Source: Deltaproteobacteria bacterium
GTDB lineage: Bacteria; Desulfobacterota; DSM-4660; Desulfatiglandales; Desulfatiglandaceae
Direction of reading: 5' to 3'
Length of the DNA stretch: 10,234 nucleotides
Assembly: GCA_003646995.1 (NCBI GenBank)
Contig: QMLZ01000094.1
Span: forward strand, 1 to 10,234
Shown here: positions 383 through 10,234 of the stretch, piece after piece
Layout of the letters: every line of letters starts with the position of its first letter
Numbering within the stretch: position 1 is the stretch's first letter
Position numbers and translations under genes: made by a program
Notes under the pieces: generated by a model
Databases searched by the model: none
What the model was told of the DNA's origin: nothing
Seen by the model: only the letters and a program-made list of their open reading frames with translations

Positions 383-1567
383 CTAATAGTCTTCTACCTC
401 AAAGATGGCTGCTGCCCCCATGCCAAAGCCGATGCACATGGACACCAGGCCCCAGCGAAGCTTTCTCTCGTGCATTTCATAGACCAACTGGGTTGTCAAC
501 TTTGCCCCGGTACACCCAAGTGGGTGCCCCAATGCTATGGCCCCGCCGTTAACATTGGTGATTTCCTCATTTAGGCCTAGAGTCCTGATGCAGTAAATTG
601 CTTGGGCAGCAAATGCCTCATTGAGCTCTATCAACTGCATTTGGTCCAGATCCATACCCGCCAGCTTTAATACCTTTGGGATTGCAACTGCAGGGCCCAC
701 ACCCATGTACTCGGGGGGGCATCCCTCCACCACATGGTAGCGGAACGTAGCCATGGGTTTTAGACCAAGTTCTTTTGCTTTTTCCTTGCTCATCAGCACC
801 ACACCCGCGGCACCGTCACTTGTTTGCGAAGAGTTACCGGCCGTAACCGTGCCGTTTGGCTTGAAAGCCGGCCTAAGATGCGAGATACTCTCCTTCGTGG
901 TCCCAGGTCTGACTCCTTCGTCAGTGTCAAAAATTATCTCATCAAAGTCAAAGTGCCCATTAGGAAGTTGTTTCTGGACCTTAACCTTCAACGGCACAAT
1001 CTGGCTTTTGAATTTACCAGCCTTTATGGGAGCTTCAGCCCTTTGTTGACTACGAGCACCAAACTCGTCCTGCTCTTCCCGGGTTATCCCATATTTTTCG
1101 GCGACGTTTTCAGCAGTCAAACCCATTCCAGTAAAGGCACCAGGACGCACATCCACAAGTGCCGGATTTGGGTACATCATGCTTCCTCCCATGGGTATCT
1201 GGCTCATACTTTCAACACCGCCTGCTATTACCACATCCGAATAACCGCACATTATCTTCTCAGCCCCTATGGCTATTGCCTGAAGCCCGGACGAGCAGAA
1301 CCGGTTGACCGTCATGCCCGGAATACGATCCGGCCATCCCATGGACATCACCAAAACCCTTCCCAGATTGAGACCTTGGGTTGCTTCGGGAAATGTACAA
1401 CCTATAATTACGTCATCGATCAGGTTGGGATCCAGGTTCCCTGCCCGCTTCAACAGATCTCCTAAAACAGCACAACCCATAGCCTCGGGCCTCACATGCC
1501 TTAAGGTGCCTCTCGGTGCCTTTCCTACCGCCGTTCTGCATGCTGCAACTATCACGGCTTCTCTCAT
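383..1567 (-). CDS. fadA: Acetyl-CoA C-acyltransferase (3-ketoacyl-CoA thiolase)
   Basis: Performs the last step of beta-oxidation, splitting 3-ketoacyl-CoA with CoA into acetyl-CoA and a shortened acyl-CoA. The protein is 394 residues, normal for thiolases. Visible landmarks: the nucleophilic cysteine Cys91 in [16 protein letters not shown] at 316-320, the [11 protein letters not shown] block at 341-351 with His348, and the second catalytic cysteine Cys378 in [11 protein letters not shown] near the C-terminus. All expected catalytic residues are present, so it should be active. The start is supported by a GGAGG 8 bases upstream. It lies 36 bases after the stop of the upstream multifunctional gene and 83 bases before the acyl-CoA dehydrogenase, in the same order as Bacillus fadN-fadA-fadE. 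A biosynthetic acetoacetyl-CoA thiolase has the same fold, but the operon favours the degradative role. Confidence 0.95.
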
Positions 1568-1603
1568 GACTCAATCCTCCATCCAAAAGGGGTTATACGA
1601 TTT

Positions 1604-4036
1604 TTAATTACGCAGGGGCTTACCAGTGTTAAGCATATGTTGTATCCTGGCCTGCGTCTTGGGGTGACCACAGAGACTTAGGAAAGCCTCCCTCTCAAGA
1701 TCAAGCAAGTACTGCTCACTTACCTTGGTATCTGACTGTATTCTCCCGCCGCACAGTACATAGGCAACTTTCTCAGATACCGTCACATCGTGCTCGGTAA
1801 TATAACCAGATGTGTGCATGGTCCACAACGCAAGCTTAAGCATGGCGAATGTATTTTCTCCAGCCACCCTTATCTCATCTTTCGGATCTGGGGGCACATA
1901 GCCTTCCATATTCATTGCAAGGACAGTCTTCTTGGCGTCTTCAATCAAGTAATCCCTGTTGACGGTCATTTTGTCGGTCGGCCTTAAATAACCGAGCTTC
2001 ACAGCTTCCGGGCCTGATGTGGAAACCTTGGCCATGGCGATAGTCTCAAAGGCTCTTGCTACAAAGGGCATCAATTCTATTTGCTTGGGGTAGACGCCAC
2101 CTCTAGGTACCTCAAACAAATGCTCTGTATTGCGGAGATACAGTTCCTTGGTGCCTCCGCCTGCCGGTATCAGCCCGACTCCAACCTCAACCAGGCCCAT
2201 ATAGGTCTCAGCAGCGTAACGCACCCGGTCCGCAGCAAGGCAGACCTCGCAGCCCCCGCCAAGCGCCATGCCTGCGGGGGCTGCCACCACAGGCTTTTCC
2301 AGGTACTTGAGCCTCATCAATGAATCTTGAAACATCTTTATCATCCACTCAAGGTCGTCCCACTCTTCCTCTTGAGCCGTAAACAAAACTAGAGGGAGGT
2401 TTGCACCAACGGAAAAGTTGTCGGCGTGATTAGCGATAACAAGTCCATCAAACCGTTCACTCACTATATCTGCCGCCTTGTAGATCATGTTGACAATATC
2501 ATCGCCTATGGCGTTCATTTTGGTGTGGAATTCAAGGCAGGCAACACCGTCGCCCAAATCTATAAGAGATGCGCCAGGATTGGAGGCAATCTCCATGTTC
2601 CTTTCCTTCAGAGACGGCAGCAAAATGATCCCCGGCTTGATAGGAACTTCTTTATAGCTCTTTGACTGCATATCATAGTAAAGCTGCTTGCCGGCCTCCC
2701 TCTTGTAAAATGACTCATTGCCTTGTGCCAGCATCTCTTCAACCCAGGCAGGAATTTGGTAACCCGCCGCCTTCATCTTCTCCACTGACCTGCCAACCCC
2801 GATAATGTCCCATGTTTCAAAGGGCCCGTATTTTCTTCCAAAACCCCACTTCATGGCATTATCCACGTTCACAATGTCATCGGCGATTTCGGGGATCCTA
2901 TTGGCTGCATAGATCAGGGTTTCGCTCATGGTCTTGAAGATAAACTGACCCCCAATATCCTGCGCATAGTAAAGAGACCGTATTTTTTCAGCTGTCCCGG
3001 AAATATTTTTGGCGGCTTCAAGGGAGGGTATGGAAACCTTTTCTTGCGGCTTATACTCTAATGTATTGTAATCCAGAGACAAGATCACCTTCTGACCTTG
3101 GGAATCTTTGGTCTTTTTGTAAAACCCCTGGCCGGTCTTTTGCCCGAGCATGTTCTTTTCCAGCATCTTCTTTATGAACTCGGGCGGCTGGAACACATCT
3201 CTCCTCTCGTCATCCGGCACACCTTCATACACATTGCTGGCTACATGGACCATGGTGTCTAGGCCAACAAGGTCGCCCGTCCTAAAGGAGGCGCTTTTCG
3301 GATTTCCAATGACCGGTCCTGTCAACTTGTCTACCGCCTCTATAGTTAATCCCATCTCCATCATCACCTTGATGCCATTGAACATGCTGAATATGCCGAT
3401 CCTATTGGCAATGAAGTTAGGAGTGTCCTTTGCGTAAACTATTCCCTTTCCCAGGGTCCGCTCGCATACTTCCGCCAATACCTCCATAACCTCGGGAAGG
3501 GTATCGGGCCCAGGTACCAGCTCCAGCAATTTCATATATCTTGGAGGGTTAAAAAAGTGCGTTATCGCGAAATGCTTGCGGAAATTTTCAGACCTGCCCT
3601 CAGACATGGCCCTGGCCGACAGCCCAGAGGTATTAGACGTCACGATGGTGCCGGGCGTTAAGACGGACTCAATCTTTTCGAACACGCTCTGCTTTATATC
3701 AAGCCTTTCCACAACAACCTCGATTATCCAATCCACATCCTTAAGCCAGTCGAGGTTATCCTCCAGATTTCCCACCTTTATCCGCTTTGCGTATTCCGGC
3801 AAGTAGAAAGAAGCTGGTCTAGATTTGAGGGCATTCTCAAGCCCCTTTTTTGCAAACTTATTGCGAAACTCCGGGCTCTCCTCGGTAAGGCCCTTCTTTT
3901 TGTCCTCGTCTGTAAGCTGCGGTGGTACGATGTCGAGTAAGACGGTATGAATCCTGGTGTTCGCCAGGTGGGCAGCTATTGTAGCACCCATTACTCCTGC
4001 ACCGATCACCCCAGCTTTTTTTATCCTGTATTCCAT
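1604..4036 (-). CDS. fadN: 3-hydroxyacyl-CoA dehydrogenase / enoyl-CoA hydratase fusion (FadN type)
   Basis: A bifunctional beta-oxidation enzyme that hydrates enoyl-CoA and then oxidises the 3-hydroxyacyl-CoA with NAD+. At 810 residues the dehydrogenase comes first and the hydratase last, the reverse of the E. coli FadB order and the layout of Bacillus FadN. Dehydrogenase half: Rossmann loop GAGVMG at 12-17, SNTSGLS at 134-140, catalytic His160 in THFFNPP, then ELVPG, and NFIANRIG at 207-214. A second dehydrogenase C-terminal domain seems to lie around 350-440. Hydratase half, from about 490: DNFSVGANL, then GMALGGGCE with Glu597, then VEVGVGLIPAGGGT with Glu617. These match the two catalytic glutamates of crotonases, so both activities look intact. 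The start at 4036 has a near-perfect AGGAGGT 5 bases upstream. It is the first gene of the operon, behind a promoter with a FadR-like operator. Confidence 0.95.
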   Translation of the reverse strand: MEYRIKKAGVIGAGVMGATIAAHLANTRIHTVLLDIVPPQLTDEDKKKGLTEESPEFRNKFAKKGLENALKSRPASFYLPEYAKRIKVGNLEDNLDWLKDVDWIIEVVVERLDIKQSVFEKIESVLTPGTIVTSNTSGLSARAMSEGRSENFRKHFAITHFFNPPRYMKLLELVPGPDTLPEVMEVLAEVCERTLGKGIVYAKDTPNFIANRIGIFSMFNGIKVMMEMGLTIEAVDKLTGPVIGNPKSASFRTGDLVGLDTMVHVASNVYEGVPDDERRDVFQPPEFIKKMLEKNMLGQKTGQGFYKKTKDSQGQKVILSLDYNTLEYKPQEKVSIPSLEAAKNISGTAEKIRSLYYAQDIGGQFIFKTMSETLIYAANRIPEIADDIVNVDNAMKWGFGRKYGPFETWDIIGVGRSVEKMKAAGYQIPAWVEEMLAQGNESFYKREAGKQLYYDMQSKSYKEVPIKPGIILLPSLKERNMEIASNPGASLIDLGDGVACLEFHTKMNAIGDDIVNMIYKAADIVSERFDGLVIANHADNFSVGANLPLVLFTAQEEEWDDLEWMIKMFQDSLMRLKYLEKPVVAAPAGMALGGGCEVCLAADRVRYAAETYMGLVEVGVGLIPAGGGTKELYLRNTEHLFEVPRGGVYPKQIELMPFVARAFETIAMAKVSTSGPEAVKLGYLRPTDKMTVNRDYLIEDAKKTVLAMNMEGYVPPDPKDEIRVAGENTFAMLKLALWTMHTSGYITEHDVTVSEKVAYVLCGGRIQSDTKVSEQYLLDLEREAFLSLCGHPKTQARIQHMLNTGKPLRN

Positions 4037-4251: not shown

Positions 4252-5172
4252 TTAATTGGCCATCTGGGTATTTTGGGAAGGTTGACCAGTCTCTGTGTCA
4301 AAAAAGCGGAGCATATTATCCCTTTCTTCGGCCAAAAATTCCTGGATTTGCTGAAGCAACTTCTCCATCGTGGGTGCATCAAGGTCAAACCCGCTTTCCA
4401 CGATGAACTTCATGGCCTTGGATTGGGCCAAATCATCAATTGTGACAATCTTTTCATCTTCAAGACAGGTGTATCCGGCAAGTTTAGTGAAGATATTGGC
4501 CAAATATATGATTATAGAGCTGGTCAAATAATTTTTGTCATGCCAAGGAGCATGATGATAAAATACCTGCATTGTAACCTTTTCGGGAAACTTCCACTGC
4601 TGCAGCAGCTTTGCTGCCACCTGATAATGGGTGATACCCAAGACCTGCTTTTCCCCTCTACTAAAGCTCTCGTTGTTCGTGGATATGTAATCGATGATCT
4701 TGAGAAAATCTTCATGGAAGTATTGATCGAACACTACCTTTCCCATGTCATGTATCAAACCTGCCAAGAATATTGTATCATCTCTCACCACATTGAAGTA
4801 TCGAGCCAAATACTTGGCTATCTGGCTGCATACGACCGAGTGTTTCCAAAATCTCGTTCGGTCGAAGTGGCCGTCCTTGTGCTGGGAAAAGAAGTTATGG
4901 ATGGAAAAAGCCAGAAGAATAGATCTCACCTCTTCAATTCCCAAGATCACAAGTGCATGGTCTATGGTGCTAACCTTGCTCAACGTTCCATAAAATGCCG
5001 AGTTGGCAACCTTGAGGATTTTTACTGCAAGCGCCTGGTCTCGCTCAATGAGAGAGGCCACCTTGGGTAGTGACACATTCTCATCGCTCAGCAGCAGGAG
5101 AATTTTCTGGGATACAATGGGGAGCGTCGGAATCTGTTCTATTCGCTGTATTAGTTTTTCTAGATCGGCCAT
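4252..5172 (-). CDS. HDOD domain signalling protein
   Basis: HDOD proteins are HD-like output domains with no firmly assigned general activity, found in bacterial signalling and often beside cyclic-di-GMP or motility genes. The protein is 306 residues from the chosen start. Landmarks, numbered from that Met: NSAFYG at 57-62, WKHS at 109-112, FLAGLIHDMGK around 135-145 with an intact His-Asp pair, and YHHAP near 205-209. The domain fills about residues 5-225 and no second domain is evident; the last about 80 residues are helical and polar. Two ATGs are possible. The one at 5178 sits only 2 bases after the AAGGT box, while the one at 5172 is 8 bases away, so I prefer 5172. The AAGGT box overlaps the stop codon of the upstream MinD-like gene, implying translational coupling. 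Function is not assignable beyond the domain. Confidence 0.88.
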   Translation of the reverse strand: MADLEKLIQRIEQIPTLPIVSQKILLLLSDENVSLPKVASLIERDQALAVKILKVANSAFYGTLSKVSTIDHALVILGIEEVRSILLAFSIHNFFSQHKDGHFDRTRFWKHSVVCSQIAKYLARYFNVVRDDTIFLAGLIHDMGKVVFDQYFHEDFLKIIDYISTNNESFSRGEKQVLGITHYQVAAKLLQQWKFPEKVTMQVFYHHAPWHDKNYLTSSIIIYLANIFTKLAGYTCLEDEKIVTIDDLAQSKAMKFIVESGFDLDAPTMEKLLQQIQEFLAEERDNMLRFFDTETGQPSQNTQMAN

Positions 5173-5183
5173 AGTCATTTACC

Positions 5184-6347
5184 TTAATTCGGGTCAACTC
5201 CACCTTTTGTCCGCAAGTAAGCCTGCAGATCCAGCTTGATTTTCGGCCCCCCGTGGCTTAGGAATCCACCACCTGAACCTCTTCCGTCACCTTCAGGGTT
5301 TCCGTTCCTTTCCAAAGCGCTTCTAATAAGCCTTAACTCTTCCGAAACCGCTGCAAGCCCCTTTGCCAGTTCCTCGATTATAGGCGTGTCTTTCTTTGCC
5401 ACTCCTTTATCGCTCTCAGGCTCTTGCTTCTGTGTCGTAACGGGTGGCGCCGGGGGCTGCGACACTTCTTTTTGGTCTTTCTCCTCCCGCCTGGAGGGGG
5501 GGCTGGTGGATTGTTTGTTGTTACCCGAGTCCTTTAGTTTTAAGGGGGCTTGCACCGCCTTCCACCACCGTCTCCAAAAGCTACCAATTTCAACATCCTG
5601 AAGCTCCTCCCCTCCCCCTTGAAGCAATTTTTCTCCTATTTTCCTAATGCACTGGGAAGCGGGTGAGTTGGGGAAGTTTATCAAAAGGGGCTTTTGCTGC
5701 TTTACAGCTTCAGTAACCCTTGTGTCATCGAAAACCACCCCAAGGGCCTGTACCTGCAGGCCTAGGTATTTCTGTACAGCCCCCCTGAATTTAGCATAGA
5801 CTGACTTCGCGGTAGCAAAGTCCTTGCATAAATTGATAATTACCTCCAGCTTACCCTGATACTCGTTAGCACAAAGCACTTTCACCAGGGAATAGGCATC
5901 GGTTAGTGAGGTGGGCTCAGGAGTTATGATAACAACTACTTCGGGGGCTGCTAAGCAAAAAGATATCACGTTTTTTGAAATGCCAGCGGAGGTGTCAAAA
6001 AGCAAGAAATCGTACTCGTGAAGCCCTGCCAAGGATTCTACTAATTCAAAGGTCTTCTCCTCTGCCAAATTGGCTAGCTCTTCAATCCCTGAACTGCCTG
6101 GCAAGATGTCAATTCCCTCAAAATCCTTAATAAGAATTTGCTGCAATTCCCTGCCGTCAAGCACCAGATCTTTGAGGGTGTGCTCAGGTTGCAATCCAAG
6201 TAATATGTTGATATTGGCCAGACCAAGGTCAGCATCAAACAAGCACGTCCTTTGACCTTGTGAGGCTAAGTACAGAGCCGTGTTCAGGCTGATGTTTGTC
6301 TTGCCTACCCCGCCTTTTCCGCTGGTTATTGTAATAATCCTAGGCAT
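5184..6347 (-). CDS. MinD/ParA-family ATPase (FlhG-like) with long C-terminal tail
   Basis: A P-loop ATPase of the MinD/FlhG type, a family that positions polar or membrane structures such as flagella and division sites. It has 387 residues. The deviant Walker A KGGVGKT is at 11-17 with signature Lys11, followed by DADLGLANI at 38-46 and FDTSAG at 117-122. The ATPase core ends near residue 245. The N-terminal DQA-type helix by which true FlhG activates FlhF is absent, since the protein begins directly at the first strand. After the core come a basic, tryptophan-rich stretch (FWRRWWK at 257-263), a Pro/Ser/Lys-rich linker to about 320, a helix (about 322-347) and a Gly-rich end. It lies 65 bases after the PilB-like gene and nearly abuts the HDOD gene. 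No clear ribosome binding site precedes its ATG. It may position the PilB-like ATPase; that is inference. Confidence 0.88.
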   Translation of the reverse strand: MPRIITITSGKGGVGKTNISLNTALYLASQGQRTCLFDADLGLANINILLGLQPEHTLKDLVLDGRELQQILIKDFEGIDILPGSSGIEELANLAEEKTFELVESLAGLHEYDFLLFDTSAGISKNVISFCLAAPEVVVIITPEPTSLTDAYSLVKVLCANEYQGKLEVIINLCKDFATAKSVYAKFRGAVQKYLGLQVQALGVVFDDTRVTEAVKQQKPLLINFPNSPASQCIRKIGEKLLQGGGEELQDVEIGSFWRRWWKAVQAPLKLKDSGNNKQSTSPPSRREEKDQKEVSQPPAPPVTTQKQEPESDKGVAKKDTPIIEELAKGLAAVSEELRLIRSALERNGNPEGDGRGSGGGFLSHGGPKIKLDLQAYLRTKGGVDPN

Positions 6348-6412: not shown

Positions 6413-9088
6413 TCACGCAGCGCTCTGAAATCCTTGCATGTAGCCCACTTCAGGGATCGCGGATATTTCCACACCGTCGTGGTTCTGTTCCAAAATAAAT
6501 GAAACCTTGGAGCAGTTGTGTTCCCTACAAATCTTCTCAAAGCTGTCTTTGATAAACTCCACAAAGACCGGTCGGTCAACCCGTGTCCCGGTTTGGCCGT
6601 TCCTTGAAACCATCCTGCTATATTCTTCATACATATTGTTTACCACATCAGTTTCTGTCCTGATGTCAGAAACTACAAACTGCTTAGCTCCTTCGGGAAG
6701 TTGTTTTTCCCGGATGCGACGCTGCTTTTCCCTCAATCTAAATGTCTGAATCATATCATGGGGTACAACCCTTATGATCTCAGTCAGGGTGGTCTGTCTT
6801 AGCTTTTGCAAACCATCATCGAGCATGGTGAGCATGCCTTTTTCCATAGCGATACGTTTGATATCGTCCACCTCAGCACCCTTGCTCAAAGCTGAGGCGA
6901 TATCCTTATCCACTACAAAAATTTCTGACAACAAGGTCCTACCCTGATACCCTGTATACCCGCAGGCCTCGCATCCCTTGCCCTTGAAAAATTGCAGGTG
7001 AGAAGGATACTCGTCAAAAATAATTGCCCATTCTTTCTCGTCCGGCACTATTTCCGTGATACACGAAGGGCAAATTCTCCTAACCAGCCTCTGCGCCAGC
7101 ACGCAACTCAGAGAAGCTGCGATTTGCGCCCTTTCTACATTCAGGTCCATCAGTCGCGGAACAGCGCTTACCGAGTCATTAGTATGGACCGTGCTGAGCA
7201 ATAGGTGCCCTGTTTGCGCTGCATCAAACCCGATCTTGGCAGTCTCCTCGTCCCTGATCTCCCCCACTAATATCACGTCCGGGTCAAGTCGCAGAAACGA
7301 CCTCAGTAACCTCGAAAAAGTTAGATCAATTTTTGGATTCACTTGGGTTTGCATGATCCCCGGGAAGCTATATTCTATTGGGTCCTCTGCTGTTATGATC
7401 TTAATCCCTGGATCATATATGTATTTCAGGGCGGCATAGAGCGTGGAGGACTTACCACTACCAGTGGGGCCGGAAACAAGTATCATTCCCGCAGAGCTTT
7501 TGAGGAACCTCTTGAAAGGCTCAAGCACATGAGGTGAATGATTCAGGCTTTCAAGTCCAACATTGGCTTTTCGAGAATCCAGGATACGAATGGTCACGTT
7601 TTCTCCAGCAATGGCCCGACACGTGGCCACACGAAAATCCAGATCATATTTTTGGCCTCGGGCCTTATCGTAATAATTGATTCTGAATACCCCATCCTGG
7701 GGGAGCCTTCTTTCTGCGATATCCAGGTTCGATATAATCTTTATTCGAGAGATAATAGAACCGGCCTTTTCCTGCAGCTTTTTCTTTAACCATGAAATAT
7801 TCACATCCTGCAAAACACCATCTATCCTGTAACGCAGTTTCGCACCTTCTCTATCCTGTTCTATGTGAATATCGCTGGCGCCATTGCTGATTCCGTATTT
7901 GATAATGAAGTTGACAAGTTCCTCTGCCTCTAAGTCCTGGGCATCGTATACAGGGCCCTCATCGGCCTCGTTGTCCATGTCCTCGTCCAACTCGATTTGC
8001 ATGAAGTCAATGCCCTTGGGTGTCTCCTCCTCCTCTTCTGCCTCTTCTATCTTTGTTTGCAATCTGCCGAGCTTACTGCTGTAAAGCACCTCAAAAAGCT
8101 CACTGAACTTCTCCTCGGTAATCAGAACACATTTGATGTTCAAGTTGCTGTAAAGACCCTTCAATTCTCTTGCAGTATGGATATTCTCGGGTCTAACTAT
8201 CGCAAGGGTTAGTTCCTTGCCTATCAAGGAAATAGGTATCATTAGATTTTTCTCAGCGTATTTTCTGCTGATTATACCCGACAATATCTTCTTGTCTTCC
8301 TCGCTGTAGGTAAACCCCCTCAAGTTCCTGAAGGGAATATTGCATTGGCGGGACAGGGCTTCTTGCAGTTGTTCGTTGGTAATGAGCTGTTTTCTAACCA
8401 GGATTTCACCCAGGGTCTCTGAACTATGACGTTGTTCTTGAAGGGCCTGATTTAGACTTTCCTTATCTATGTACCCCAGCCTTAGAAGAATCTCGCCCAA
8501 TTTGAACTGCTTCTTGTATTTGTTGAGCACGTAGTAGAGGTCAAGCGGATTTACCAGCTCCAAATCACACAGGATCTCCCCCAGAACCCGTGGTGATTTT
8601 TGAATCTTCAAGGCGTGCTTCAAGGTTTTTTCGTCAATTAGGTTCCTCTGGACCGCAAGCTCTCCCAGTCGTTTAGAATTCATCTGCTCCTTTTGCAGGT
8701 CACGGAGCTGTTCAGGGCTGAGATAACCTTGTTTTACCAGTAAGTCCCCTAGGGGCTGACCGGGAGCTTGCTTTCTGAGAGCTTCCGCCAATTGCTCCCT
8801 GGATATATATCCCTTTTCAATGGCCAAGCTCCCCAGGTCCCTTTTTAGATCAGGATGCTCCAGGAGCTCGCGAAGATCTTCCTCGGTCAAAGCACCCATT
8901 CGGACCAGGATCTGGCCAAGGGGATATTTGGCCAGTTCTGATTCCTCCTTTTGAATGGTCAAGGCCCTTTGGATATCTTCTTGTTTGACAAACCCCTCCT
9001 TGACCAAAAGATCCCCTATCTTCAAGTTTCCTCCAACTTCTAGAGGACGTTTGGAACGACTTTGCGCGTTAGGAAAATTTTCATTCAT
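6413..9088 (-). CDS. PilB/GspE-like secretion ATPase with eight MshEN motifs and a C-terminal extension
   Basis: A hexameric AAA-like motor of the type IV pilus/type II secretion superfamily. Numbering is from the ATG at 9088 (891 residues). Residues 23-248 hold eight tandem repeats of the pattern xLGxxLVxxGxxxxxxLxxxLxxQ. The rest of the usual N-terminal domain follows (249-345), then a very acidic linker (about 348-378). The ATPase core shows Walker A GPTGSGKSST (540-549), Asp box ITAEDP (565-570), Walker B DPDVILVGEIRD (602-613), His box TGHLLLSTVHTND (626-638) and a four-cysteine zinc site (Cys673, 676, 706, 709). The core ends near 777, and 778-891 is extra. Start uncertain: the frame is open to 9238 without a good ribosome site there. 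ATG 9088 has only a weak AGG, and a TTG at 9025 has GGAGG 4 bases upstream. First gene of a probable operon with the MinD-like and HDOD genes. No pilin or platform gene is nearby. Confidence 0.93.
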   Translation of the reverse strand: MNENFPNAQSRSKRPLEVGGNLKIGDLLVKEGFVKQEDIQRALTIQKEESELAKYPLGQILVRMGALTEEDLRELLEHPDLKRDLGSLAIEKGYISREQLAEALRKQAPGQPLGDLLVKQGYLSPEQLRDLQKEQMNSKRLGELAVQRNLIDEKTLKHALKIQKSPRVLGEILCDLELVNPLDLYYVLNKYKKQFKLGEILLRLGYIDKESLNQALQEQRHSSETLGEILVRKQLITNEQLQEALSRQCNIPFRNLRGFTYSEEDKKILSGIISRKYAEKNLMIPISLIGKELTLAIVRPENIHTARELKGLYSNLNIKCVLITEEKFSELFEVLYSSKLGRLQTKIEEAEEEEETPKGIDFMQIELDEDMDNEADEGPVYDAQDLEAEELVNFIIKYGISNGASDIHIEQDREGAKLRYRIDGVLQDVNISWLKKKLQEKAGSIISRIKIISNLDIAERRLPQDGVFRINYYDKARGQKYDLDFRVATCRAIAGENVTIRILDSRKANVGLESLNHSPHVLEPFKRFLKSSAGMILVSGPTGSGKSSTLYAALKYIYDPGIKIITAEDPIEYSFPGIMQTQVNPKIDLTFSRLLRSFLRLDPDVILVGEIRDEETAKIGFDAAQTGHLLLSTVHTNDSVSAVPRLMDLNVERAQIAASLSCVLAQRLVRRICPSCITEIVPDEKEWAIIFDEYPSHLQFFKGKGCEACGYTGYQGRTLLSEIFVVDKDIASALSKGAEVDDIKRIAMEKGMLTMLDDGLQKLRQTTLTEIIRVVPHDMIQTFRLREKQRRIREKQLPEGAKQFVVSDIRTETDVVNNMYEEYSRMVSRNGQTGTRVDRPVFVEFIKDSFEKICREHNCSKVSFILEQNHDGVEISAIPEVGYMQGFQSAA
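8345..9022 (-). repeat. Eight tandem about 24-residue MshEN-type protein repeats
   Basis: Within the PilB-like protein the copies lie at residues 23-46, 56-79, 84-107, 112-135, 140-163, 168-191, 196-219 and 225-248, with gaps mostly of 4-5 residues (9 between the first two). Copy 7, KLGEILLRLGYIDKESL, shows the pattern. The family motif as I recall it, in tandem pairs binding cyclic di-GMP in MshE, is RLGxx-hh-xxG-hh-xxxxLxxxLxxQ (h, hydrophobic). Only copy 5 keeps the exact RLG opening; the others start KIG, PLG, DLG, VLG, KLG or TLG. Copies 2 and 6 lack the final Gln. The repeats are diverged at DNA level, so they are old. Confidence 0.85.
9023..9034 (-). promoter_or_regulatory. Alternative start signal: GGAGG followed by TTG
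   Basis: On the minus strand GGAGG (9030-9034) is separated by AAAC from a TTG at 9025 in frame with the PilB-like gene. Starting here would place the first repeat (KIGDLLVKEG) directly at the N-terminus, as is common in the family. The 4-base spacing is short, so this remains a competing start to ATG 9088. Confidence 0.4.
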
Positions 9089-9482: not shown

Positions 9483-10234
9483 ATGTCCATAAAGCTCCGG
9501 GTAATTAAAGGCCCAATGAAGGGTCATACATTCGAAATCAACAAACCCACCGTTTTTGTGGGCAGGTCCTCGAAGAATGACATTCAAATAAGGGATGCCA
9601 CCATCTCCAGGAAACAGGTAAAATTGTTCACACTCGGCAATAAGCTATTTGTTGAAGACCTTAAGAGCACCAATGGGACAAAGCTGAACGGGACCCGAAT
9701 TCAGCCTGGCGAAGGTATAGAGGTAGGGGAATCGGATATCTTGACCATGGGAGATACCGTCATCCAATTAACAGGTTTGGATAGTGGCTTGGTACCGCCC
9801 TCACCCCATAGACTATCGGTTAAGACGAGTTCTGAGCAATCCGCTGTTCCAGAGGAAAGAAAAGAGCGCAGGAGCTTAACAAGGAATATGCAACTGGTGG
9901 TGGAATTGGGTGAGTTGCTCAAAGCAAAATTTTCCCTCCATGAAATGTGCGAGAAGGTGCTCGATTTCCTGCTGAAAAATCTACCCCGTATTGACCGAGC
10001 AACCATTGCATTGTTCGACCCTGACAGCCTTACCGTAACCACGGCCCTTAGCAAGACAAGATCGGGTCAAAAAGATGTTATTTCCCCATACAGCCGCCAA
10101 ATCCTGGAAAGGACTCTCAGGACCGGAAAATCCGTTAGAATGTCCAATACACATTATGAAACAGCAGATGAGCTTTCAGAAAGTATCGAAACCCTCAGAA
10201 TTAAATCATTGATGTGCGTGCCCATGATGAGTAA
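9483..10234 (+). CDS. FHA-GAF domain signalling protein (C-terminus beyond window)
   Basis: An open frame of 250 codons running off the right edge, translated directly from the sequence. Residues about 1-97 form a forkhead-associated domain, a phosphothreonine-binding module: VGRSSKNDI (26-34), ISRKQ (41-45), STNGT (62-66) and LNGTRI (68-73). The GRS loop, Ser42/Arg43 and Asn64 are present, but the usual histidine of the SxxH motif is Gln45. A polar linker (about 100-133) leads into a GAF domain from about 135 to the edge, ending at SLMCVPMM, the typical GAF strand. The output domain is not visible; FHA-GAF proteins may continue into cyclase, GGDEF, sigma54-activator or phosphatase modules. 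ATG 9483 has an AAGG box 8 bases upstream. It is divergent from the PilB-like operon and may sense or report kinase signalling related to it, which is inference from position only. Confidence 0.88.
   Translation, partial: MSIKLRVIKGPMKGHTFEINKPTVFVGRSSKNDIQIRDATISRKQVKLFTLGNKLFVEDLKSTNGTKLNGTRIQPGEGIEVGESDILTMGDTVIQLTGLDSGLVPPSPHRLSVKTSSEQSAVPEERKERRSLTRNMQLVVELGELLKAKFSLHEMCEKVLDFLLKNLPRIDRATIALFDPDSLTVTTALSKTRSGQKDVISPYSRQILERTLRTGKSVRMSNTHYETADELSESIETLRIKSLMCVPMMS

Follow-up and report, generated by a model that had tools for sequence, protein, structure and literature searches.

An eight-motif MshEN array ahead of a pilus-type ATPase core

The window analysed here, i.e. the whole stretch of 10,234 nucleotides of contig QMLZ01000094.1 (assembly GCA_003646995.1) from a deltaproteobacterium of the Desulfatiglandaceae, contains an operon that begins with a gene for a PilB/GspE-like protein of 891 amino acids (aa; the window protein) and continues with genes for a FleN/FlhG-like MinD-family ATPase and an HDOD-domain protein (Table 1). 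In the window protein, eight tandem MshEN motifs (M1 to M8) precede the ATPase core, and this array is kept in a family of relatives and, in some lineages, in orthologues without the core. The start codon was set by the lengths of homologues; the in-frame open reading frame (ORF) reaches 9238, and the database copy of the window protein itself (P0002) is called at 907 aa.

A sequence-only reading had placed eight tandem MshEN motifs at 8345 to 9022 in one secretion ATPase, and these coordinates are exact: M1 starts at 9022 and M8 ends at 8345. Using a profile of 66 motif copies from PilB-like proteins outside the family, M1 to M8 score 38.3, 26.8, 36.1, 33.2, 26.2, 5.0, 40.0 and 37.5 bits; 103 shuffled ORFs reach at most 0.9. 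In the same scan, a stretch of the ATPase core at aa 714 that is surely no motif gets 4.0 bits and, therefore, the score of M6 alone is no proof; M6 is supported by its 28-residue register, by two predicted helices and by relatives (13.1 bits in the relative L001). The NCBIfam model NF053729 (c-di-GMP_motif), whose cut-off is 38 bits, matches in four stretches and scores 178.7 bits. M1 and M2 are 33 residues apart, M2 to M7 follow each other every 28 residues, and the classical 24+5 arrangement is present in M7-M8 only.

PF00437 matches aa 388-770 of the window protein with 367 bits, and residues G543, S544, G545, K546, D604, E610, C673, C676, C706 and C709 are invariant in 56 aligned sequences; by this core, its Walker A and B motifs and the tetracysteine, the window protein can be assigned to the T2SSE secretion/pilus ATPase superfamily. 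The PilB equivalog TIGR02538 matches aa 196-774 with 480 bits and the GspE equivalog TIGR02533 scores 451 bits, both below their curated cut-offs of 676 and 630, respectively. A paralogue in another genome (G199:C1:276612-278534; a frame of 1029 aa with one TGA counted inside the match) matches aa 255-884 at 39% identity, apparently with the tail region included.

In the structure model, the array forms a well-ordered helical arm (predicted local distance difference test score (pLDDT) 87.5; predicted template modelling score 0.74). The expectation that the repeats fold in an MshEN-like manner is borne out for M7-M8, which together with the MshEN_C subdomain adopt the MshEN fold of a four-helix bundle and an alpha/beta C-subdomain in a fold comparison spanning aa 196-338 only; for M1-M6, two helices per motif are predicted with high pLDDT.

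Conservation of the array and motif numbers elsewhere

Relatives were collected by searching with aa 1-400 against 5.8 billion sequences. The best 120 of 668 matches were used and, with the window protein included and P0002 and three proteins of at most 700 aa left out, give a set of 117. The spacing of 33, 28, 28, 28, 28, 28 and 29 residues is identical in 114 of the 117, and the profile finds all eight motifs in 108. Judged from these sequences, the eight-motif array is an invariant feature of the whole family and no peculiarity of the window gene. Orthologous motifs are 42-72% identical and motifs inside one protein 34% on average; the array is therefore old. Organisms named among the matches listed belong to the Desulfobacterota/Thermodesulfobacteriota or Deltaproteobacteria; one annotated family member is from Desulfurivibrio alkaliphilus. 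Of 395 evenly sampled genomes of the phylum, in each of which up to two candidates were scored, 7 (the window's own among them) contain a match at E <= 1e-150. In one genome (G244), the motor gene is split between two overlapping frames (L101:8902-11519 and L096), reflecting a frameshift or an assembly error.

Among 98 other unique PilB-like ORFs (the best 80 of at least 595 matching loci and further loci with duplicates removed; a sample, not a census), 6 have no motif, 19 have one, 68 two, 4 three and 1 six; where there are two, they are 29 residues apart in 58 ORFs, 30 in 8 and 28 in 2. Eight motifs are unusual in a pilus/secretion ATPase. The suspicion that this copy number is out of the ordinary, thus, holds with respect to other PilB-like ORFs, none of which has eight, and not within the family, where it is fixed.

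Long arrays of the motif also occur in other proteins. In a second search, made with the array, the best 120 of 399 matches were used; motif counts for 118 matches from this search gave six motifs in 55, four in 21, ten in 2 and twelve in 7. Most have no T2SSE annotation, and some of the four-motif proteins have one (e.g. P0145, P0178 and P0203). Arrays of six, ten and twelve motifs are mostly visibly paired or grouped, those of six being mostly spaced 29/42/29/37/29. In P0159 the spacing is nearly even (29, 27, 29, 29, 29), as it is in some four-motif proteins (30, 30, 30), so that an even run is rare yet not exclusive to the eight-motif family. In seven proteins of 430-468 aa without T2SSE annotation (P0138, P0140-P0144 and P0146), twelve MshEN-type motifs are arranged as three groups of four; one of the seven (P0144) bears the name Candidatus Sericytochromatia, as does the eleven-motif P0147.

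Orthologues without the ATPase core

Thirteen orthologues have array, MshEN_C and tail, and no T2SSE core: 11 from the second array search (421-467 aa) and one each from genomes G136 and G190. A similar protein in G452 is extra and uncounted. Among other candidates, P0122 and P0123 were rejected because they run into the ATPase core and P0129 because it has no tail; P0133 and P0137 are short and were not counted. When 85 genomes of the class of G136 were searched, 9 had one array match each at E <= 1e-40, lying in frames of 841-937 aa in 7 genomes, of 462 aa in G136 and of 449 aa in G452. G136 and G190 have 10 and 8 T2SSE-family matches, respectively, none more than 44% identical to the core of the window protein. 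Because some lineages keep arm, putative sensor and tail next to the same MinD-like gene without the motor core, the arm can be regarded as the constant part and the motor as the optional one.

Ligand competence of the motifs

A motif was scored as competent for binding cyclic di-GMP (c-di-GMP) if it retains the MshE ligand positions Leu2, Gly3, Leu17, Leu21 and Gln24, with Leu, Ile, Val and Met accepted (positions as given in part of PMC5013675). The pattern of the window protein is 10101011, with M7-M8 as the sole pair in which both motifs are competent. The five-residue spacer together with the conserved Leu, Gly and Gln that characterize the two-motif MshEN is also found in M7-M8 only. The earlier observation that only one copy has an exact RLG start is correct and refers to M5; M7 and M8 begin with Lys and Thr, respectively, instead of Arg. 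This start is not diagnostic, because the GSPII-B domain of Thermus thermophilus PilF binds c-di-GMP at 6 nM without the arginines, as stated in a section of PMC11731258.

In the set of 117, M1 is competent in 104, M2 in 3, M3 in 34, M4 in 90, M5 in 97, M6 in none, M7 in 51 and M8 in 69, and adjacent pairs are intact in 3 (M1-M2), 28 (M3-M4), 74 (M4-M5) and 48 (M7-M8) proteins; M4-M5 and M7-M8 are both intact in 26. M7 and M8 retain or lose competence jointly and M4 and M5 do not (kinship ignored). M6, the best-conserved motif within the ATPase-bearing family, has Tyr or His in place of Gln in all 117. For M1 to M8 of the 13 ATPase-less proteins, Gln24 is present in 10, 0, 0, 4, 1, 1, 13 and 13 and full competence in 8, 0, 0, 3, 0, 0, 13 and 12. 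By this strict criterion M7-M8 is intact in 12 of the 13, the exception being G190 with Phe at M8 position 2, and M7 starts with Arg or Lys in all 13.

Combining these data, we suggest that the array probably senses c-di-GMP through M7-M8 only and that M7-M8 with MshEN_C most likely binds one c-di-GMP per subunit. Alternatively, no motif binds c-di-GMP and the array is a purely structural arm, i.e. a spacer or an oligomerisation ring around the hexamer, comparable to the disk assumed for PilF. This would account for the 69 of 117 proteins in which M7-M8 is not intact and has parallels in some GspE and PilB N-domains that lost c-di-GMP binding or its residues (parts of PMC5013675 and PMC8389850). 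Given an intact M7-M8 in the window protein and in 12 of the 13 ATPase-less proteins, where the other motifs have decayed, we find this alternative unlikely.

Several ligand sites per subunit, as proposed in the sequence-only reading, would make the array a multi-site sensor that binds two or more c-di-GMP per subunit at M7-M8 and at another pair, such as M3-M4 or M4-M5, enabling graded or cooperative control. In the window protein, M4-M5 is broken because M4 has no second Leu, leaving M7-M8 alone intact; the M4-M5 spacer is of four residues, the two motifs show no coupled loss, and M5 is competent in none of the 13 ATPase-less proteins. We therefore regard a multi-site sensor as improbable. 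The frequency of an intact M4-M5 nevertheless makes a second ligand site possible elsewhere in the family; in line with this, M1 has Arg or Lys at position 1 in 98 of 117 and Gln at position 24 in 113, and PilF of Thermus thermophilus binds two c-di-GMP per subunit according to excerpts of PMC11731258 and PMC12002112. The other roles envisaged for the array, a long adaptor arm or partner docking, fit better with the modelled helical arm and with the retention of the array without the ATPase.

Origin of the ATPase-less form

In an unrooted tree of array and tail, built from every second family protein above 800 aa and two loci (58 in all) and the 13 ATPase-less proteins, the two forms separate cleanly. 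The ATPase-bearing relative nearest the ATPase-less branch (L001:378-2705; 775 aa) has no C-terminal tail. With an outgroup of 45 other PilB-like ORFs (duplicates kept), the ATPase-less proteins group into a single clade (0.87), unlike the ATPase-bearing ones. This topology, based on only about 146 columns, favours motor loss. The reverse scenario, in which the ATPase-less form is older and acquired a motor core between arm and tail only later, agrees with the clean separation in the unrooted tree. It fits less well with the outgroup tree and with the position of M7-M8 and MshEN_C directly ahead of the core, an arrangement shared with ordinary PilB, and we give it little credence.

Genomic context

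In 14 relatives, the MinD-like gene adjoins the ATPase-bearing gene in 11 of 13 informative genomes; the copies in G213 and G424 are cut by contig ends (that in G424 was detected by tblastn), and G444 is uninformative for the same reason. The HDOD gene is next in 8 of 9 informative genomes and was not found in G459; for this count G213, G424 and G444 are uninformative at contig ends, and G043 and G001 were left out, being without a MinD neighbour. The full gene order including the thiolase, FadB-like and FHA-GAF flanks is kept in G420, G423 and G443 (L148, L150 and L151).

The MinD-like gene also adjoins the ATPase-less gene in all three loci examined, and in all three a response regulator with receiver domains and DUF4388, which we take to be the PATAN domain, precedes it (identified by Pfam in two loci and by 73% identity in the third). 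Beyond these genes, G136 has a gene for a PilZ-domain protein and G190 one for a kinase-receiver-HDOD protein. Domain searches of the window recognised no gene for a pilus platform, the neighbours being the MinD-like, HDOD, FadB-like, thiolase and FHA-GAF genes; around the genes of relatives, a minority of ORFs were domain-searched. All 7 genomes searched for GGDEF and T2SSF genes contain both.

Table 1. Features of the operon and of the window protein
Feature	Position	Strand	Basis or remark
PilB/GspE-like ATPase, 891 aa, with eight-motif N-terminal array	6413..9088	-	ORF reading and domain searches
Motif M1, aa 23-46	8951..9022	-	Ligand Gln in 113/117 relatives; neighbour M2 mostly without Gln
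Motif M2, aa 56-79	8852..8923	-	Positions 1 and 24 both Pro; lacks ligand competence
Motif M3, aa 84-107	8768..8839	-	
Motif M4, aa 112-135	8684..8755	-	Position 21 Gln for Leu in window protein
Motif M5, aa 140-163	8600..8671	-	Sole exact RLG start; neighbours M4 and M6 not ligand-competent here
Motif M6, aa 168-191	8516..8587	-	Least MshEN-like; candidate docking face
Motif M7, aa 196-219	8432..8503	-	Predicted c-di-GMP site, first half
Motif M8, aa 225-248	8345..8416	-	Predicted c-di-GMP site, second half; 5-residue spacer after M7
MshEN_C alpha/beta subdomain, aa 249-338	8075..8344	-	PF05157; VIA match of aa 194-336 to MshE
Acidic linker, aa 339-384	7937..8074	-	pLDDT mostly <50
T2SSE ATPase core, aa 385-776	6761..7936	-	Walker A, Walker B, two CxxC pairs
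C-terminal tail, aa 777-891	6416..6760	-	About aa 801-891 common to ATPase-less orthologues
FleN/FlhG-like MinD-family ATPase, next gene	5184..6347	-	Nearest solved structures FleN, E 2.5e-50; synteny
HDOD-domain protein, third gene	4252..5178	-	PF08668; synteny
Thiolase and FadB-like genes and divergent FHA-GAF gene, flanking the operon	383-4036 and 9483-10232		

Comparison with known systems

M7-M8 and MshEN_C share the sequence pattern, the 24+5+24 spacing and the modelled fold with MshEN of Vibrio cholerae MshE (PDB 5HTL), and in both proteins the T2SSE ATPase follows. Unlike MshE, the window protein has six extra front motifs without an MshEN_C of their own, five spacings of 28 and a C-terminal tail, and no pilus gene was recognised beside its gene in the window. 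T. thermophilus PilF also has several MshEN-type motifs ahead of a PilB core, seven by summed per-domain counts with three in GSPII-C, and just two of its three GSPII domains bind c-di-GMP (passages of PMC11731258 and PMC12002112). However, PilF repeats whole GSPII domains, each with a C-subdomain, whereas the window protein has one C-subdomain for eight motifs, with a single PF05157 stretch at aa 250-340. Three consecutive GSPII domains have so far been reported only in PilF homologues of Deinococcus-Thermus, as put in a passage of PMC11731258, and the passages of this source and of PMC12002112 drawn on here mention no ATPase-less orthologue of PilF.

The proteins with 6, 10 or 12 motifs and no T2SSE annotation, often labelled DUF4388, resemble the family in their long arrays of the same motif. 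They differ in that the motifs mostly form clear pairs, with spacings of 29 inside a pair and of 36, 37 or 42 from one pair to the next, or are grouped in fours, and in that no MshEN_C-ATPase unit is annotated. The DUF4388 regulators beside the ATPase-less genes recall the Synechocystis PixE-PilB1 system, in which PATAN-type regulators act on PilB (part of PMC7690835); a regulator gene of this type is absent from the window. No paper on the eight-motif family was found in the open-licence literature by title and abstract start (MshEN, GSPII/PilF, PATAN-PilB, T2SSE_N-DUF4388 and PilB-HDOD-MinD).

A model for the function of the array

We propose that the window protein is a c-di-GMP-responsive arm on an optional pilus-type motor, with M7-M8 as its sole sensor and M1-M6 as a scaffold for a partner, a model that we see as evenly poised between right and wrong. 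In this model, each subunit of a PilB/GspE-type motor homologue would bear a long ordered helical arm, the motor-side end of which is one ordinary MshEN module (M7-M8 and MshEN_C) binding one c-di-GMP. M1-M6, in which no intact ligand pair is left in the window protein, would serve as a scaffold holding a partner, most likely the FleN/FlhG-like MinD ATPase of the operon docking on the array; M6, conserved and not ligand-competent, is the best candidate for the docking face. Binding of c-di-GMP would shift the seating of arm and partner on the motor, so that the motor is placed or licensed. The array and its conservation, the modelled MshEN-like fold of M7-M8, the operon and the orthologues without ATPase are observed, and c-di-GMP binding, docking of a partner and the cargo of the motor are inferences.

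Several points weigh against this model. M8 of the window protein has Thr instead of Arg at position 1 and Gln instead of Gly at position 10. M7-M8 is intact in just 48 of 117 ATPase-bearing relatives and, therefore, c-di-GMP sensing at this pair is not universal; in 21 of the 117 neither M4-M5 nor M7-M8 is intact. Between clades, M6 (0.44) is no better kept than M1 (0.50) or M8 (0.49), and one of the 13 ATPase-less proteins has Gln at its position 24. The MinD-like gene was not found near the motor gene in G043 and G001, and gene adjacency is the one line of evidence for its product as partner. The predicted geometry of M1-M6 lies outside aa 196-338, the region compared with known folds.

More tentatively, and with less confidence than in the model itself, the protein may be a c-di-GMP-sensing positioning adaptor that partners a FleN/FlhG-like MinD ATPase. 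Such an adaptor would have arisen on a pilus-type motor whose MshEN domain was extended to eight motifs and could shed this motor, the operon conserving the sensor arm and tail and not the ATPase. The role of the N-terminal domain in pilus extension motors is described as poorly understood in part of a review (PMC11656802). In the family described here, this domain is much longer, is linked to a MinD-like gene and in some cases occurs without the motor, a natural setting in which its function can be investigated independently of ATP hydrolysis. The family also shows that the count of ligand sites is not given by motif number alone.
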